Source: Actinomycetota bacterium
GTDB lineage: Bacteria > Actinomycetota > Thermoleophilia > Miltoncostaeales > Miltoncostaeaceae
Direction of reading: 5' to 3'
Length of the DNA: 64,000 nucleotides
NCBI GenBank assembly: GCA_963169235.1
Contig: CAUJCX010000024.1
Span: forward strand, 1-64,000
Notes under the pieces: generated by a model
The model's input: the letters and a program-made list of their open reading frames with translations, nothing else
What the model was told of the DNA's origin: nothing
Database searches by the model: none
Translations under genes and position numbers: made by a program
Shown: piece after piece, positions 23,472 through 35,390 of the stretch
Layout of the letters: every line of letters begins with the position of its first letter
Numbering within the stretch: the first letter of the stretch is position 1

Positions 23472-24913
23472 ACACGTCGATCCGCCGCCTGTTCGCGGTG
23501 CTCGCCTGCGGCTTCCTGCTGCTGGGCCTGCTGCTGGGCTACTGGCAGGTGGTGGCCGCCGGTGACCTGGCCGACCGCACCGACAACCGGCAGGCGCAAC
23601 GCCGCGACCAGACCGTCGACCGCGGGCGCATCATCACCGCCGACCGCATCGTGGTGGCCCGCAGCGTGCCGCGGGTCATCCGGGGGCAGACGACGTACGT
23701 GCGCGGCTACCCGCAGGGCACGCTGGCGCCCCACGTCGTCGGCTACGCCAGCCCGCAGGTGGGATCCACGGGCCTGGAGGCCCAGTACAACTCGTACCTG
23801 CGGGGAAGCTACGGCGCGGAGCCGCTGCTGGTGCGGTTGCGGCTGCGCACCGCCCACGGCGCCGACATCCACCTCACCATCGACCAGCGGGTGCAGGAGG
23901 TGGCCGACCAGCAGCTCCTGGGGCGCAAGGGCGCCGTCGTGGCCATCGACCCGAAGACCGGGGCGATCCTGGCGATGGCCTCGTCGCCGGGCTATGACCT
24001 GGCCAAGGTGTCCGACCCCAAGGCGTTCGCGCAGATCCGCACGGCCCCCGACTCGCCCCTGTACAACCGCGCGACGCAGGGCCGCTACCCGCCCGGCTCC
24101 ACGTTCAAGCTGGTGACGCTGGTGGCGGCGCTCGAGTCCGACCTGGGGTACTCGTCGCAGACGCGCTTCGACGACACCGGCACGCTGCGCACCAACGGGC
24201 CGCCCATCCGCAACTTCGGCGGCCACGTGTACGGCGACCACGACCTGACCCAGGCGCTCACCAACTCGGTGAACACCACGTTCGCCCGCATCGGGCTGAA
24301 CCTGGGCGCCAACCGCATGGGCGAGCAGATGGAGGCGTTCGGCTTCGGCCGCAAGCCCGGCATCGACCTGCCGGGCAACGAGGTGCTGGCCTCCGGGCGC
24401 TACCAGGGCGGCAAGCTGCTTCCCAACATCGCCGGCGACGCCGACCTCGCCCGCATCGCCATCGGCCAGGAGAAGCTGAGCGTCACGCCGCTCGAGATGG
24501 CGATGGTGGCGGCGACGATCGCCAACGGCTGCACCCAGATGCGCCCGTACCTCGTCACCAACGCCGTCGACCGCAGTGGATCGGACGTGTTCGAGCAGTC
24601 CCCCAGCCAGGTGCGCCAGGTGTGCTCCGCCGACACCGCCCGCATCGTCACGGACATGATGGGTAACGTGGTGCGTGAGGGCACCGGCACCCAGGCGGCC
24701 CTTCAGGGACTGGACGTCGCGGGCAAGACCGGCACCGCCGAGACCGGCGACGGCGGTCTCAACGATGCATGGTTCGTAGGGTTCGCACCGAAGGACGATC
24801 CCAAGGTCGCGATCGCCGTGGTGGTGGAGGGCACGCCCGACACGGGCGGCGTGGCGGCGGCGCCCATCGCGCGTGAGGTGATGAAGAAGGCCATCGAGAG
24901 GAGCGGGGGATGA
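23468..24913 (+). CDS. pbpA: class B penicillin-binding protein (PbpA)
   Basis: A 481-residue peptidoglycan transpeptidase. An N-terminal membrane helix (LFAVLACGFLLLGLLLGYWQV) is followed by a short pedestal domain and the transpeptidase domain with S211-TFK214 (active-site SxxK), S267-VN (SxN) and K420-TGT (KTGT). The length matches mycobacterial PbpA. It acts in the periplasm-like space with the SEDS polymerase encoded immediately upstream; the ATGA overlap ensures coupled synthesis. It is also followed by pknB through an ATGA overlap. No PASTA domain is on this protein. Confidence 0.94.
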   Translation: MNTSIRRLFAVLACGFLLLGLLLGYWQVVAAGDLADRTDNRQAQRRDQTVDRGRIITADRIVVARSVPRVIRGQTTYVRGYPQGTLAPHVVGYASPQVGSTGLEAQYNSYLRGSYGAEPLLVRLRLRTAHGADIHLTIDQRVQEVADQQLLGRKGAVVAIDPKTGAILAMASSPGYDLAKVSDPKAFAQIRTAPDSPLYNRATQGRYPPGSTFKLVTLVAALESDLGYSSQTRFDDTGTLRTNGPPIRNFGGHVYGDHDLTQALTNSVNTTFARIGLNLGANRMGEQMEAFGFGRKPGIDLPGNEVLASGRYQGGKLLPNIAGDADLARIAIGQEKLSVTPLEMAMVAATIANGCTQMRPYLVTNAVDRSGSDVFEQSPSQVRQVCSADTARIVTDMMGNVVREGTGTQAALQGLDVAGKTGTAETGDGGLNDAWFVGFAPKDDPKVAIAVVVEGTPDTGGVAAAPIAREVMKKAIERSGG

Positions 24914-27009
24914 GCGGTATCCAGAGCGGCGACATCATCGCCGACCGCTACCGCATCGCCGAGCAGTTGGGCGCGGGCGGCATGGCCCAGGTGTTCCGCG
25001 CCGACGACATGGACCTGGGGCGCAGCGTCGCCATCAAGGTGCTGGCGTCCCGCTATGCGCGCGACCAGCAGTTCGTCGACCGCTTCCGCCGCGAGGCGTC
25101 GTCGGCGGCCAAGCTGAACCACCCCAACATCGTGCAGGTGTTCGACCGCGGCGAGGCCAAGGGCACGTACTACATCGTGATGGAGTACCTGCCGGGCCCC
25201 GACCTCAAGGACATCATCCGCCGCCGGGGCGCCATCGGCGCCGACGAGACCATCGAGGCCGGCCTCCAGATCCTGTCGGCGCTCGCCGTGGCCCACCGCA
25301 ACCACGTGGTGCACCGCGACATCAAGCCGCAGAACGTCATCATGGCCGACGACGGCCTGTTGAAGGTGACCGACTTCGGCATCGCGCAGGCCGGGACGGA
25401 GGCCGAGCTGACCGAGGCCGGCTCGGTGATCGGCACCGCGCAGTACCTGTCGCCCGAGCAGGCCCAGGGCGGCGACGTGACGGGCTCGAGCGACTGCTAC
25501 TCGGTGGGCATCGTGCTGTACGAGATGCTGACCGGGCGCGTGCCGTTCGACGGCGAGCGCCCCGTGACGGTGGCCATGAAGCAGGTGCACGAGCCCCCCG
25601 TGCCCCCGTCGGTGTTCGAGCCCTCCGTACCGCCCGCGCTCGAGAAGGTGGTGCTGAAGGCCATGGCCAAGCGCCCGTCCGACCGGTACGCGTCGGCCGA
25701 GGACTTCAGCGCCGCCCTGATGGCGGTGCGCGCCGAGCTTGACTCCGACGACGGCACCGCGGTGATGGGTGCCGCGCGCGACGACGCCACGCGCGTCATG
25801 ACGCCCGTCGGCGGACCGGCCGAGGGCTCCACCCGCGTGATGCCCGCAGCCGGCGGTGCCGGGGCCGGGGCCGGCGACGCGCGCGCCCGCCGCGTGGAGC
25901 CACCACCTCCCGAGAACGCGCCCCCGCGCCCCATGTGGCCGTACCTGGTGGCGCTGGCCGTGCTGCTGCTGGTGGCGGGCGTCGCGTACCTGATGCTGAG
26001 CGGCGGCGGCAAGGGCGACACCACCATGGTCACCGTGCCGTCCGGCCTCGTGGGCCTGTCCGAGCAGGACGCCACCACGCAGCTGATCGCGGCCAAGCTG
26101 AAGCCCGAAAGCGAGCGGGTCGCCGACCCCAAGATCCCCGTCGACCAGGTGATCTCGGTCGATCCGGCCGAGGGCAGCAAGGTGGCCGAGGGCGGCAAGG
26201 TGGTGCTGACCGTCAGTTCCGGCCCGGCCAACACGTCGGTGCCGGACGTGGTGACGATGAAGCAGGCCGACGCCGTCGCGGCCATCAAGCGCGCCAACCT
26301 GGTGCCCAAGGTGCAGAAGAAGTTCAGCGCCGACGTCGACAAGGGCGTGGTGATCTCGCAGAACCCCACGTCGGGCGCGCAGGCGGCGGAGGGCGACACC
26401 GTCACGATCGTCGTCAGCGACGGCACCGAGCCCATCAAGGTGCCCAACGTGCGGGCCAAGAGCCTCGACACCGCGCTCAGCATGCTGCGGGCGGAGGGCC
26501 TGGAGGGCAACCCGGTGGAGGTCACCAGCGAGCAGCCCAAGGGCATGGTGCTGCGGCAGGACCCGGCACCCGGCACCGAGGTGCAGAAGGGCGCCACGGT
26601 GCGCCTGGAGGTGGCCGCGGGCCCGCAGCTGACGTCGGTGCCGTCGGTGGTCGGCAGCACGCGCGAGAAGGCGCAGTCGGTGCTGGAGGGCTCCGGGTTC
26701 GACGTGTCGGTGCAGAACGAGGCCAGCAGCACGGTGCCCAGCGGATCGGTGATCCGCCAGGACCCTGGCCCCAACGCAGAGGTGAACGGCGGCTCCACCA
26801 TCACCATCTGGGTGAGCGACGGACCGGCGGCGGAGCCCACCACGCCGGTGCCCGCCCCGGCCCCCGCGCCGGGCGCCACCACCCCCGCGCCCGGGCCCGC
26901 GCCGGCGACGCCCGACAACAACACGCCCGTGCCGGCGCCCGGGCCCACGGGCCAGAACCCGGGCCACGGCGGCACGCCCCCCGGTCAGGCGAAGAAGGGC
27001 AACGGATGA
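24910..27009 (+). CDS. pknB: PASTA-domain Ser/Thr kinase
   Basis: A 699-residue membrane receptor kinase. The kinase domain (about 14-275) has Gly loop GAGGMAQV, K43, HRDIKPQNVI, DFGIA and YLSPEQAQG. A Pro-rich juxtamembrane part leads to one helix (WPYLVALAVLLLVAGVAYLML) near residue 340, then four PASTA repeats (about 375-645) that bind muropeptides or lipid II, and an unusually long Ala/Pro/Gly tail of about 55 residues outside the cell. It should phosphorylate FHA-docked and envelope proteins and be reversed by PstP. ATGA overlaps join it to pbpA and ddl. Confidence 0.95.
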   Translation: MSGIQSGDIIADRYRIAEQLGAGGMAQVFRADDMDLGRSVAIKVLASRYARDQQFVDRFRREASSAAKLNHPNIVQVFDRGEAKGTYYIVMEYLPGPDLKDIIRRRGAIGADETIEAGLQILSALAVAHRNHVVHRDIKPQNVIMADDGLLKVTDFGIAQAGTEAELTEAGSVIGTAQYLSPEQAQGGDVTGSSDCYSVGIVLYEMLTGRVPFDGERPVTVAMKQVHEPPVPPSVFEPSVPPALEKVVLKAMAKRPSDRYASAEDFSAALMAVRAELDSDDGTAVMGAARDDATRVMTPVGGPAEGSTRVMPAAGGAGAGAGDARARRVEPPPPENAPPRPMWPYLVALAVLLLVAGVAYLMLSGGGKGDTTMVTVPSGLVGLSEQDATTQLIAAKLKPESERVADPKIPVDQVISVDPAEGSKVAEGGKVVLTVSSGPANTSVPDVVTMKQADAVAAIKRANLVPKVQKKFSADVDKGVVISQNPTSGAQAAEGDTVTIVVSDGTEPIKVPNVRAKSLDTALSMLRAEGLEGNPVEVTSEQPKGMVLRQDPAPGTEVQKGATVRLEVAAGPQLTSVPSVVGSTREKAQSVLEGSGFDVSVQNEASSTVPSGSVIRQDPGPNAEVNGGSTITIWVSDGPAAEPTTPVPAPAPAPGATTPAPGPAPATPDNNTPVPAPGPTGQNPGHGGTPPGQAKKGNG

Positions 27010-28037
27010 CCCGCGTGCTGGTGCTGATGGGGGGGCGCAGCGGCGAGCACGACGTGTCGCTGGTGTCGGCCCGCGGCGTGGTGGACGCGCTCACGGAGGG
27101 CGGCTTCACGCCCGTGCCGGTGGTGATCGACCGGGAGGGCGCGTGGACCCGCGACGGCCGGCCGGTGACGCTCGGTCCCGGCGCGGGCGGCGTCGGGCGG
27201 CTGATCGACCTGGCCGACGGCAGCGTGGACGAGGTGGACGTGGTGTTCCCCGTGTTGCACGGCCCCAACGGCGAGGACGGCACCGTGCAGGGCCTGTGCG
27301 AGATGGCCCGCCTGCCGTACGTCGGCGCGGGCGTGGCGGCGTCGGCGGTGTCGATGGACAAGGCGCTGTTCAAGGCCCTGGCGATGGGACACGGCCTGCC
27401 CGTCGCGGAGGCCGTCGTGGTGAGCGCCGCCGACTGGGCCACGCAGCCCGACGCGGTCACCGCGGAGGTGGCGGCGTCCATCGGCTACCCGTGCTTCGTG
27501 AAGCCGGCCCGCATGGGCTCGAGCGTCGGCATCTCGCGGGTGTCGTCCCCCGACGGGCTCGACGAGGCCATCGTGCTGGCGCTGGCGGCCGACGACAAGA
27601 TCCTGATCGAGCGCGGCGTGACATCGCCGCGTGAGGTGGAGGTGGGCCTGCTGGGCACGCCCGGCGACCTGGTGACGTCGCCGCCGGGCGAGATCACGTA
27701 CGACGCCGAGTGGTACGACTACGAGACCAAGTACACGGACGGACGCGCCCAGGTGACCATCCCCGCCGCGCTCGACCCGGCGCTGGTCTCACGCCTGCAA
27801 GCCCTGGCGGAGGCCGCGTTCGAGCTGGTGGGATGCCACGGTCTGGCACGCGTCGACTTCCTCATCGCCCCCGACGGCGAGATCTTGCTGAGCGAGCTCA
27901 ACACCATGCCCGGGTTCACGCCCACCAGTGCGTTCCCGTCGCTGATGGCCCAGGCGGGCGTGCCCTACCCCGAGGCGGTGCGGCGCCTCGTGACCATGGC
28001 GATGGACCGCGCGGGCGCGCGCACCGCCACGACGTGA
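27006..28037 (+). CDS. ddl: D-alanine-D-alanine ligase
   Basis: A 343-residue ATP-grasp enzyme making D-Ala-D-Ala for peptidoglycan precursors. Signatures: MGGRSGEHDVSLVSA at the N-terminus, FPVLHGPNGEDGTVQG, GYPCFVKPARMGSSVGISRV, LARVDFLIAPDGEILLSELNTMPGFTPTS. All ATP and metal ligands (E and N in LSELNTMPG) are present. Its position inside the kinase/SEDS operon, overlapping pknB (ATGA) and the next gene (GTGA), is not the mycobacterial arrangement and links precursor supply directly to the signalling unit. Confidence 0.95.
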   Translation: MTRVLVLMGGRSGEHDVSLVSARGVVDALTEGGFTPVPVVIDREGAWTRDGRPVTLGPGAGGVGRLIDLADGSVDEVDVVFPVLHGPNGEDGTVQGLCEMARLPYVGAGVAASAVSMDKALFKALAMGHGLPVAEAVVVSAADWATQPDAVTAEVAASIGYPCFVKPARMGSSVGISRVSSPDGLDEAIVLALAADDKILIERGVTSPREVEVGLLGTPGDLVTSPPGEITYDAEWYDYETKYTDGRAQVTIPAALDPALVSRLQALAEAAFELVGCHGLARVDFLIAPDGEILLSELNTMPGFTPTSAFPSLMAQAGVPYPEAVRRLVTMAMDRAGARTATT

Positions 28038-29553: not shown

Positions 29554-30591
29554 CTACGACCCCCGCGGCGCCGGCGCCGGCGACGCGCGGGCCCGGGGGT
29601 GGGCACGATCGAAGTCGCTGCGCAGGTGCGCGGCGGTGACGTGGGTGTAGACCTCGGTGGTGACGGGCGACGCGTGCCCCAAATGAGCCTGCACGTAGCG
29701 GATGTCGATGCCCGACTGGATGAGGTGCGTGCCGCACGAGTGCCGCAGGGCGTGCGGGAACACCCGCCCGCCGTGGTCGGCGAGGCCCGCGCGGCGGGCG
29801 GCGGCGGTGACGATGCGCCAGACGTCCTGGCGCCCCAGGCGCCGCCCGGTGTGTGACACGAACACCGCGTCGGCGTCGCGGCGCCCGCCGGCGTGCGCGG
29901 CACGCAGCTCGGGCCGCCCCAGGCGCAGGTACGCCTGCAGTGCCCGCACGGCGGTGGCGGGCACGGCCACGGCGCGCGGCTTCGCGCCCTTGCCCATGAC
30001 GACCACGTGGGGGTCGGCGGGGTCGTCCAGGTGGCAGTCCGACACGTTGAGCCCCACGGCCTCGCTGGCACGCAGGCCGCAGCCGTACAACAGCTCCACC
30101 AAGGCAGCGTCGCGCGTTCCCCGAGGGCCGGGCCGGGCTGCCGCCTCGCACAGCATGCGCGTGGCCGACGGGGTCAGCGCCACCACCTCGCGGCGCAGCG
30201 CGTCGCGTCCCGCCGCGACCCCGGGTGGCTTCACGGCGGACGCCGGGTTGGCGACGCCGAAGGCCTGCGACGACCAGGCGCACAGGGCCCGCACCGCGGC
30301 GACACGGCGGCGGCGGGTGGACGGGCGCCCGGTGAGGCCGTCGCGCCACGCGTCGAACCAGCCGGGGCCCAGCGCGGCCAGCGCCGCGGCGGCGGCCCGG
30401 GCCGCCGGGTCGTCCTCCACCCCGAACGTGCGCCCCACCGCGTCGGCGTCGGGCAGGGCGTCGTCGCCCAGGCCCAGGGCGCCGGCCAGCACCGCCAGGT
30501 CGCGGGCGTATGCCGCGCGGGTGTTGGCGCTCGCGCGGGTCGACAGGAACCCCTCGGCCAGGCGCGCGAAGCCCGCGGGGTCGACGCTCAT
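29554..30591 (-). CDS. tyrosine recombinase (XerC/XerD-like), second of pair
   Basis: A 345-residue site-specific recombinase. The N-terminal SAM-like core-binding region (about 1-165) is longer than in most Xer proteins because of an Ala/Asp-rich insert. The catalytic domain keeps R (GCGLRASEA), K (GKGAKPR), HxxR (HALRHSCGTH), H (LGHASPVTT) and the Tyr nucleophile (VYTHV). The ATG at 30591 overlaps the TGA of the first recombinase (ATGA). Two adjacent, coupled tyrosine recombinases suggest a heteromeric Xer pair for dimer resolution at dif. Confidence 0.88.
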   Translation of the reverse strand: MSVDPAGFARLAEGFLSTRASANTRAAYARDLAVLAGALGLGDDALPDADAVGRTFGVEDDPAARAAAAALAALGPGWFDAWRDGLTGRPSTRRRRVAAVRALCAWSSQAFGVANPASAVKPPGVAAGRDALRREVVALTPSATRMLCEAAARPGPRGTRDAALVELLYGCGLRASEAVGLNVSDCHLDDPADPHVVVMGKGAKPRAVAVPATAVRALQAYLRLGRPELRAAHAGGRRDADAVFVSHTGRRLGRQDVWRIVTAAARRAGLADHGGRVFPHALRHSCGTHLIQSGIDIRYVQAHLGHASPVTTEVYTHVTAAHLRSDFDRAHPRARASPAPAPRGS

Positions 30592-31520
30592 CCGCGCGGG
30601 TGGCCGCGACGCAGCATGCCCTGGATGTCGCGGGTGGTGACCCCCGTGTAGCGCTGCGTGGTGGCCAGGCTGGCGTGGCCCAGCACCTCCTGCACCACGC
30701 GCAGGTGCGCGCCGTCGCGCCCGGGCGGCCCCTCCAGCAGGTGCGTGGCGGCGGCGTGGCGCAGCACGTGGGGGCCACCGGAGCGGCCGATGCGCCGCAG
30801 GCGGTCGTTGACGATGCGGTACACGGTGGAGCCGTCGAGCGGCCGGCCGGAGCGCGACAGGAACACCTCGTCCCGGGCGCGCCCGGCGTTCTCGGCCGCC
30901 ACCACCGGGCGGCCCTGGTGGATCCACTGGGCCAGCGCGGCGACGGCGGGCTCGGTGAGCGGCACGGTACGGGTGCGCCCGCCCTTGCCCGCCACGCGCA
31001 CGGTCTCGTGCTCGAAGTCGATGTCGCCGAGGGCCATGTCGCACGCCTCCTGGCGGCGCAGGCCCGACCCGTACAGCACCTCCACCAGCGCGCGGTTGCG
31101 CAGCGCGAGGGGGTCCAGGTCGTCGGCCTCGGCGGCGACGGGGCGCGACATGCCGGCCACCAGGGTCGCGGCCTCCGCCTGGCTGATGCGCGTGACCAGG
31201 GGCGCCGGCACCCGGGGGCGGGGGATGCGTTCGGGTGGCGTGCGCCCGGCGGGGAAGTGCGGGGCCAGCCACTCCCGGGCCGCGGTGAGGGCCCGCGCGC
31301 GGGTGGAGGCCGACCAGCCCAGGTCGCGCAGGGCCGCCTCAAGCGCCGATGGGGTGATGGCGGCGGGGCCGGGCACGCCGTGGGCGTCCATCCACTGGCC
31401 CAGCAGGCGGGCGTCTTTCAGGTACGCGCGGCGGGTGCGGGGTGACAGCACGCGGGGGCGGTCGCCCTGCCGCTGCAGGCGGGCGTCGAGGTCGGCCAGG
31501 GCGTCGTCCCACGAGGTCAC
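30588..31520 (-). CDS. tyrosine recombinase (XerC/XerD-like), first of pair
   Basis: A 310-residue recombinase of typical Xer length. N-terminal DNA-binding domain (about 20-120, RTRRAYLKDARLLGQWM); catalytic residues R (GSGLRRQEA), K (GKGGRTR), HxxR (HVLRHAAATH), H (LGHASLATT) and Tyr (RYTGV) are all present. The start is taken as GTG 31520, which overlaps the stop of the upstream kinase gene (GTGA); the AAGAGGAG before it is very close, so translation probably depends on coupling. The two recombinases share the fold but are clearly diverged from each other. Confidence 0.88.
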   Translation of the reverse strand: MTSWDDALADLDARLQRQGDRPRVLSPRTRRAYLKDARLLGQWMDAHGVPGPAAITPSALEAALRDLGWSASTRARALTAAREWLAPHFPAGRTPPERIPRPRVPAPLVTRISQAEAATLVAGMSRPVAAEADDLDPLALRNRALVEVLYGSGLRRQEACDMALGDIDFEHETVRVAGKGGRTRTVPLTEPAVAALAQWIHQGRPVVAAENAGRARDEVFLSRSGRPLDGSTVYRIVNDRLRRIGRSGGPHVLRHAAATHLLEGPPGRDGAHLRVVQEVLGHASLATTQRYTGVTTRDIQGMLRRGHPRG

Positions 31521-33070
31521 CTCCTCTTGTTCGGCACCCCCTTCACGGTTACCTCTTGCACGGTGGCCAGGTACTTGCCGTCGGCGTCGGGTTGCGGCGC
31601 CAGGCGAGTGATCCACAACAGCAGTTCGTTGGTGGCACCGGCGGCCAGCGGCACGTGCTGGGTGCCGCCCTTGAACGTGCCCTTGGCCAGCGGCGGGTCG
31701 GTGAACGGTGGCTGCCCGGCGTTGCGGATCTCGAACGTGGCGCCCGGGGTGTCGGACGTGATGCCCACCTCGGTGGGGCGGTAGCGGGCGGGCAGGGTCA
31801 GCTGCAGGCCGACGCCGTCCTTCGCGTAGCCACCGAAGTCGGGCGTGGTGCTGTAGCGCTCGGTCGACCATCCGGCGGTGATGCTGCCGTCGGTGGCGGC
31901 GTTGACCTGGTCGGGGTTCTCGGTCTTCTCCCCGTCGCCCTGGGGGTCGAACGACTGCACGTCGTCGATGGGGATGCGGGTCGCGGCGGGGGTGGGCGGC
32001 GGGCTGGGATCGCGCTCGTTGAGCGCCTGGTAGCCGACGTAGCCGCCGACGGCCGCCAGCAGCACGCCGATGCCGGCCGCCAGCTCGGTGAGCGAGCGGC
32101 GGCGCCGCGGCTGGACGCGGCGGCGGCGCTGGGTGTCGTCGGCGGCCGCATCGAGCTCGGGAGGGATGGCGAACGACGCCGTGTCACCCGAGTCGCGTTC
32201 CTCCAGGGCCCGGGCGAAGCGGGCGGCACTGTCGAACCGGTGGCTGGGGTGCTTGGCCGCCGCGCGCAGGGCACACGCGGCGACGTGGCTGGGGATGTCG
32301 GGGCGCACGCTGCGGGGGTCGGGCAGCGGGTCGCTGACGTGGCGCATGGCGACGCCCAGGAAGCTGTCGGCGGGAAACGGCAGCTTGCCGGTGAGGCATT
32401 CCCACAGCACGATGCCGAGGCTGTAGACGTCGGTGCGCCCGTCGATGGGTTGCCCCTCGGCCTGCTCGGGGGCGAGGTAGTCGCTGGAGCCCACCAGCAT
32501 GCCGGTGCGCGTGAGCCCCATGTCGTGGTGGCCCTCCATCAGGCGGGCGATGCCGAAGTCGGTGAGCTTGGCGGTGCCGTCCTTGGCCAGGAGCACGTTC
32601 TGCGACTTGATGTCGCGGTGCACGATGCCGTTGTGGTGGGCGTGGTCGAGCGCGCGGGCCACCTGCGCGCAGATGCGCACGGCGTCGGCGGGGTCGAGCG
32701 CCCCTTCGCGGCGGATGCGCGACTTCAGGTCTTCGCCGTCGACCAGCTCCATCACCAGGAACGGGCCCTCGTCGTCCTCGCCGCGGTCGAGCAGGTGTAC
32801 CAGCCCGGGGTGGGCGAGGCGGGCGACGGTCTCGGCCTCGCGGCGGAAGCGGTCGACGGCCTCCTGGTCGTCCAGCAGGCTGGGGCGCAGGCGTTTGAGG
32901 GCGACGGGGCGGTCGAGCACCGTGTCGTGGGCGCGCCACACCGTGGCCATGCCGCCGCGCCCGATCTGGCGCTCCACGCGGTAGCGCACCGTCGCCGTGT
33001 CGCTCAACGGTGTCGCCGGCCGGGTGGCGTGGTGGACGCGTTCACCGAGCCAGGATAGCCGCCTATTCAC
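31517..33070 (-). CDS. membrane Ser/Thr kinase with discoidin-like ectodomain
   Basis: About 517 residues. Kinase domain (about 28-290): GRGGMATV, K (VALKRL), HRDIKSQNVLL, DFGIA and YLAPEQAEG, all catalytic residues present. After an Arg-rich stretch comes one membrane helix (LAAGIGVLLAAVGGYVGY) and an extracellular region containing FDPQGDGEKTENPDQ, then GWSTERYSTTPDFGGYAKDGVGLQL, the discoidin-like fold also found at the C-terminus of actinobacterial MviN proteins. The start is uncertain: GTG 33070 gives the longest frame, but TTG or GTG codons about 65-80 bases inside are possible. It is coupled to two recombinases and divergent from a response regulator. Confidence 0.88.
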   Translation of the reverse strand: MNRRLSWLGERVHHATRPATPLSDTATVRYRVERQIGRGGMATVWRAHDTVLDRPVALKRLRPSLLDDQEAVDRFRREAETVARLAHPGLVHLLDRGEDDEGPFLVMELVDGEDLKSRIRREGALDPADAVRICAQVARALDHAHHNGIVHRDIKSQNVLLAKDGTAKLTDFGIARLMEGHHDMGLTRTGMLVGSSDYLAPEQAEGQPIDGRTDVYSLGIVLWECLTGKLPFPADSFLGVAMRHVSDPLPDPRSVRPDIPSHVAACALRAAAKHPSHRFDSAARFARALEERDSGDTASFAIPPELDAAADDTQRRRRVQPRRRRSLTELAAGIGVLLAAVGGYVGYQALNERDPSPPPTPAATRIPIDDVQSFDPQGDGEKTENPDQVNAATDGSITAGWSTERYSTTPDFGGYAKDGVGLQLTLPARYRPTEVGITSDTPGATFEIRNAGQPPFTDPPLAKGTFKGGTQHVPLAAGATNELLLWITRLAPQPDADGKYLATVQEVTVKGVPNKRR

Positions 33071-34615: not shown

Positions 34616-35390
34616 TCATGCGTGCTGCTCGTGGCGGGTGGTCTCGAACTCGGCGGGCGGCTGGTTGCCGATGGAGCTGTGGAGCCTGGTGTTGTTGTAC
34701 CAGCTGATCCAGGCGATGCTCGCGAACTCGAGGTGCCGCCTCGTGCGCCAGACGCGGTCGCTGATCAGCTCGGTTTTGAGGGTGTCGACGAAGCTCTCGG
34801 CCATCGCGTTGTCGTATGCGTCGCCGACGGTGCCGATCGAGGCGAGCACGCCGTGATCATCAAGGGTTCTGCGGGAAATCAAGGCTTGTGTACTTGGCTG
34901 CCGGCGTCGCTGTGATGGATCAGTTGGACGTCGGCGCCGATCTCGCGGGTCGCCAAGGCCATCCGCAGGGCGTCGAGCACGAGGGTGGTGCGCATGTCGC
35001 CGGCCAGTTGCCAGCCGACGATCTTGCGGCTGTAGGCGTCGAGCACGAAGCTCAGGAACACGGTGCCTTGCCAGCACCGCAGGTAGGTGAAGCCTGCGAC
35101 CCACAACAGGTCCGGGCCGGGGGCGGTGAACCTGCCCATCAACACGGTCCGGCGGGCGCCTGGCAGCCGTGTCGGGGACGGTGGTCCGCCATGGCGTGCC
35201 GCGCCGTTTTGCGCCTTCAAGGCCTGCCTGGCGCATCAGCCGCCTGACCCTGTCGCGGCCGACCTCGACGCCCTCACGCCGCAGTGCCCGCCACACACGA
35301 CGGTACCCGTAGGCGTAGTAGTTCGCCGCGCAGAAGCGCCTCGATGCGCCCCGAAAGCCGCTGATCCTCGACACGCCGCGCCGACCGCCG
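34616..35390 (-). pseudogene. IS3-family transposase (OrfB), frameshifted remnant
   Basis: Pieces of one IS3-type transposase lie in different frames: ANYYAYGYRRVWRALRREG and RDRVRRLMRQAGLEGAKRRG, then FTAPGPDLLWVAGFTYLRCW with DAYSRKIVGW and LIHHSDAGSQ, then ASIGTVGDAYDNAMAESFVDTLK and WYNNTRLHSSIG. Frameshifts are needed near 35130 and 34880 and probably near 35340. The first catalytic Asp (usually WVADFTY) is Gly here, while the second Asp and the Glu are kept. The 5' end is cut at a junction with a fragment of an MFS gene, and OrfA is absent. No terminal inverted repeats were found. Confidence 0.85.

Follow-up and report, generated by a model that had tools for sequence, protein, structure and literature searches.

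Two tyrosine recombinase genes located directly behind a receptor-type Ser/Thr kinase gene were found on the minus strand of the window, by which we mean the whole 64,000-nucleotide stretch of DNA analysed here. We propose that they represent the genome's sole XerC/XerD-type pair, which was moved or replaced, has diverged, and now stands behind an already existing envelope kinase; the most likely function of this pair is the housekeeping resolution of chromosome dimers. XerC and XerD, which untangle joined chromosomes, are usually encoded by unlinked and slowly changing housekeeping genes, and dimer resolution by XerC/XerD, dif and FtsK operates in E. coli, B. subtilis and most Actinomycetota.

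Organization of the kinase-xer-xer locus

The locus comprises the kinase gene (positions 31517 to 33070), a gene for an XerC-like recombinase of 310 aa (30588 to 31520) and a gene for an XerD-like recombinase of 345 aa (29554 to 30591), all on the minus strand, with the XerD-like gene ending at 29554. The start of the kinase gene is uncertain and could be either GTG 33070 or the in-frame TTG 33007. The first-pass annotation had described stop/start overlaps at both internal junctions, and the sequence bears this out: the kinase stop codon (TGA, 31519-31517) shares bases with the XerC-like start codon (GTG, 31520-31518) in a GTGA overlap (31517 to 31520), and the XerC-like stop codon (TGA, 30590-30588) shares bases with the XerD-like start codon (ATG, 30591-30589) in an ATGA overlap (30588 to 30591). 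Judging from these overlaps, the three genes are probably co-transcribed in a shared message and translationally coupled, so that the kinase and the recombinases would be made together.

A divergent gene for an OmpR-type response regulator (PF00072 and PF00486; 33136 to 33888, plus strand) is a neighbour kept at nearly all family loci. A remnant of an IS3-type transposase, split over more than one frame, lies downstream of it in the window (34616-35374). Beside the xer pair, within a conserved neighbourhood, a convergent cell-wall operon on the plus strand carries the genes for a PASTA kinase (24910-27009) and a D-Ala-D-Ala ligase (ddl, 27006-28037), joined by an ATGA overlap. In this operon, NTGA overlaps occur at four successive junctions (pbp/pknB, pknB/ddl, ddl/phosphodiesterase and phosphodiesterase/lipoprotein), and they were counted at 57 of 177 codirectional neighbour pairs (about 32% of junctions, with a crude gene caller). 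Since such overlaps are ordinary in this clade, the one between the kinase and xer genes is no sign of a special coupling.

Domain architecture of the receptor kinase

The kinase exhibits a Hanks-type cytoplasmic kinase domain (PF00069, E 5e-51), a single predicted transmembrane helix (about 32021-32092) and an extracellular F5/8C-CBM32-like domain (about 31520-31981). An AF2 model of the helix and ectodomain reached a pLDDT of 88.9, and the modelled ectodomain matched CBM32/F5-8C domains in Foldseek (E 6e-5, prob 1.00), so that the model backs the initial proposal of a membrane kinase with a discoidin-like ectodomain. The VALK, HRDxKxxN and DFG-type motifs are intact in all 17 family kinases checked. 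With its predicted active domain, transmembrane helix and putative extracellular sensor, the protein is expected to be a receptor Ser/Thr kinase of the PknB type. By its sequence it would not be classed as a Stk1/PknB PASTA kinase: it lacks PASTA repeats, and it scored 363.8 bits against the corresponding model NF033483 (cut-off 450), the match being confined to the kinase domain. A carbohydrate-binding domain has been described for MviN of M. tuberculosis (PMC12599244).

Identity of the recombinase pair

Both recombinases match PF00589 (E 2e-36 in each case), and the XerC-like protein additionally matches PF02899. The catalytic set R-K-HxxR-H-Y, initially noted in both, is indeed invariant in alignments of 17 XerC-like and 16 XerD-like family members. 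The genome also encodes an FtsK that comprises an alpha, a motor and a gamma domain (gamma PF09397, E 6e-25). The description of the two proteins as a probable XerC/XerD pair is upheld as to kinship by FtsK-gamma and by the HMM scores, the best NCBIfam models being XerC (TIGR02224, 187.5 bits) and XerD (TIGR02225, 188.1 bits), respectively, but both scores fall far short of the equivalog cut-offs of 335.15 and 329.6.

PF00589 had three matches in the whole genome, namely the pair and a degenerate 208-aa tyrosine recombinase (L051:8820-9446, G000:C20) without the HxxR and second His motifs. The PF00589 search thus detected no canonical xerC or xerD elsewhere in this genome, whose assembly is missing a few percent, and the xer pair appears to be its sole catalytically complete tyrosine recombinase pair. 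The degenerate recombinase gene sits downstream of a receiver-only response regulator gene, and in several relatives, too, open frames similar in length match PF00589.

Conservation across the family

The near relatives are Miltoncostaeales (Thermoleophilia) MAGs, against which the neighbour genes were searched by tblastn (G234 and G307 included). The kinase-xer-xer order is not unique to this genome: it is kept at 18 family loci from 12 genera, with kinase identities of 55-87%, a conservation stronger than the first-pass annotation could know. The wider layout (response regulator / kinase-XerC-XerD / (PDE) Ddl-PASTA kinase) recurs in nearly every genus of the host family. The XerC-XerD junction is mostly ATGA across the family, with a TGA junction in most members. 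The spacing between the kinase and XerC-like genes varies: about half of the genomes show a 4-nt overlap, several leave 2-5 nt between the two genes, and in three the distance is 21-70 nt.

Host family genomes carry essentially one copy of the ectodomain, sited at the kinase-xer-xer locus; G018 lacks it. In this reduced genome (1.5 Mb, 98% complete) the kinase is absent and XerC, XerD and the response regulator remain; no kinase lies between the XerC-like and response regulator genes in its locus L046 (G018:C1, 8844-10787). Three genomes of the same genus (G009, G234 and G307) retain the kinase. The xer pair itself is present throughout the host family, even in G018.

Divergence and origin of the pair

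In a comparison of the pair with 296 phylum genomes, scores were 505-542 bits within the family and no higher than 206 bits outside it. In the phylogenetic tree, the XerC-like protein grouped with the XerC of the class and the XerD-like protein with its XerD (support 89/91, moderate), on long stems (1.86 and 1.98 substitutions per column, respectively). In an AU test, a single clade of XerC-like and XerD-like proteins was left unrejected (p 0.405), so that tracing the XerC-like protein back to XerC and the XerD-like protein back to XerD stays tentative.

Other Thermoleophilia families carry xerC at whiG and xerD at ald/deoB, and family f3 has an adjacent xer pair of its own. In G012, a one-contig genome of the host family, both the whiG place and the nudix-deoB place are without xer. 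Families f5 and f7, also of the Thermoleophilia, possess a kinase with a related ectodomain near pknB-ddl, either convergent to ddl or close to it, and without xer genes. On the most parsimonious account, the recombinase genes came to the kinase gene. In the family ancestor, both genes would have left their old sites (beside whiG for xerC, flanked by a NUDIX gene and deoB for xerD), or been replaced, and the xer tandem would then have landed directly behind a receptor kinase that the pknB-ddl cell-wall island already contained.

As regards origin only, the native xerC and xerD might not have moved but been displaced, either by a foreign pair or by one born of tandem duplication. We rate this as possible but not the likelier course: the AU result and stems near 1.9 substitutions per site speak for it, whereas the unconstrained tree splits the pair into XerC and XerD groups, the HMM preferences of the two proteins differ in the expected direction, and no closer source appeared in about 300 phylum genomes or in mobile collections.

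Search for a dif site

For the pair to act in dimer resolution, it would work with FtsK at a diverged dif site. Canonical dif (core ATAACGTGCGTTATGTCAA) is present as an exact match in two genomes of the sister family f3. In the host family, canonical patterns with 2-3 mismatches gave no consistent site, a de novo screen (G012, 400 kb; G018, 1.1 Mb) gave no dif, and shared-28-mer screens between G012 and G018 yielded coding or chance-like matches only. Locating dif, as proposed at the outset, was unsuccessful with canonical patterns and with the de novo screen, and the dimer-resolution reading is weakened by this outcome as well as by scores far under the equivalog cut-offs. The weak GC skew of G012 places the terminus only roughly.

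Two candidates were rejected. A palindrome in the terminus region of G012, TTTACACYAAA-N5-TTTRGTGTAAA, present as a single copy in four genomes, was discarded because all four have it between ino1 and a divergent resolvase-like gene, and the other family genomes lack it; G018 has ino1, but no resolvase-like gene was found in the 1.1 Mb examined. The palindrome (near position 1501 of L138, L139, L140 and L141) is perhaps an operator of the neighbouring resolvase-like gene, in which the usual catalytic Ser position seems to be Ala (RVAPRER). The second, ATGATTNNNNTTATGAGAT, common to G000 and G001, resembles a Zur box more than dif; it stands where a metal ABC transporter operon of the znuA/znuB type begins (near 1510 in both L248 and L247, a znuB-like gene adjoining in L247).

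In an earlier survey, dif was reported in all 66 single-chromosome Actinobacteria examined, and the diverged XerCD of Cyanobacteria escaped the prediction method used (PMC3025954). A comparable divergence of XerCD in the host family may explain why the dif searches failed there.

Possible control by the kinase and alternative functions

The gene arrangement makes co-expression of the kinase with the recombinases likely and control of the recombinases by the kinase possible. The first-pass annotation had gone further, suggesting that envelope or division signals could control dimer resolution. This suggestion gains from the conserved gene order and from the lack of another xerC/xerD detected in the genome, and it loses from the survival of the pair without the kinase in G018, the related kinases without xer in f5 and f7, the ordinary and variable overlaps, and the failure to find dif. 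In its explicit form, the kinase would sense envelope or septal glycan via its discoidin-like ectodomain and phosphorylate XerC/XerD or FtsK, gating dimer resolution to division. Active-type kinase motifs, an ectodomain fold predicted to be of the carbohydrate-binding type, retention of the order over 12 genera and genes that mostly overlap or lie no more than 5 nt apart are consistent with such gating. We nevertheless consider it unlikely, given the G018 locus and the xer-free kinases of other families; moreover, the linkage is not specific, because much of the neighbourhood (response regulator, Ddl and PASTA kinase) is similarly conserved, and a literature search gave no paper on Xer phosphorylation. 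That a rewired XerC/XerD acts at a novel kind of dif under the direct control of a receptor kinase sensing envelope glycans, tying dimer resolution to the state of the cell wall, is in our view quite unlikely.

It is more doubtful still that the pair serves some other, family-specific kind of recombination, such as inverting or integrating DNA at sites of its own, with dimer resolution achieved otherwise or absent: the failure to find canonical dif in the host family and the extreme distance from every other actinobacterial Xer fit this, but the pair is the only catalytically complete one of its genome, is family-wide and kept even in the reduced G018, FtsK-gamma is retained, and the locus has no mobile genes of its own. 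A mobile-element recombinase pair was rejected: searches of viral contigs, plasmids and phages gave no close relative, the best plasmid match having 33% identity and the phage matches being partial. None of the findings named at the outset as speaking against the proposal (a gene order confined to this genome, a canonical xer elsewhere, a mobile location of the pair) was encountered.

Comparison with known systems

On the favoured reading of a relocated or replaced housekeeping pair, a whole family would have its xer genes in an operon with a signalling kinase, strongly diverged and with recognisable dif lost. The host family would then serve as a natural experiment on the joint change of recombinases and their site, and through the kinase-xer-xer arrangement one could test whether envelope signalling is linked to the resolution of chromosomes.

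XerS/difSL of streptococci is reported to employ a diverged single Xer in place of canonical XerC/XerD (PMC2731167). Here too diverged Xer proteins would replace the canonical ones, although there are two recombinases and no linked target site was seen. The kinase resembles the mycobacterial MviN (Rv3910) pseudokinase and PknB in being a membrane kinase, and MviN in having an ectodomain of the carbohydrate-binding type (PMC12599244); it differs from them in lacking the MurJ part and PASTA repeats, in its apparently catalytically intact motifs and in adjoining xer. Finally, compared with XerC/XerD-dif-FtsK, the genes are joined in an operon behind a kinase, the scores lie far under the equivalog cut-offs and canonical dif was not found, whereas two recombinases with the full catalytic set, FtsK-gamma and one pair per genome are features common to both.
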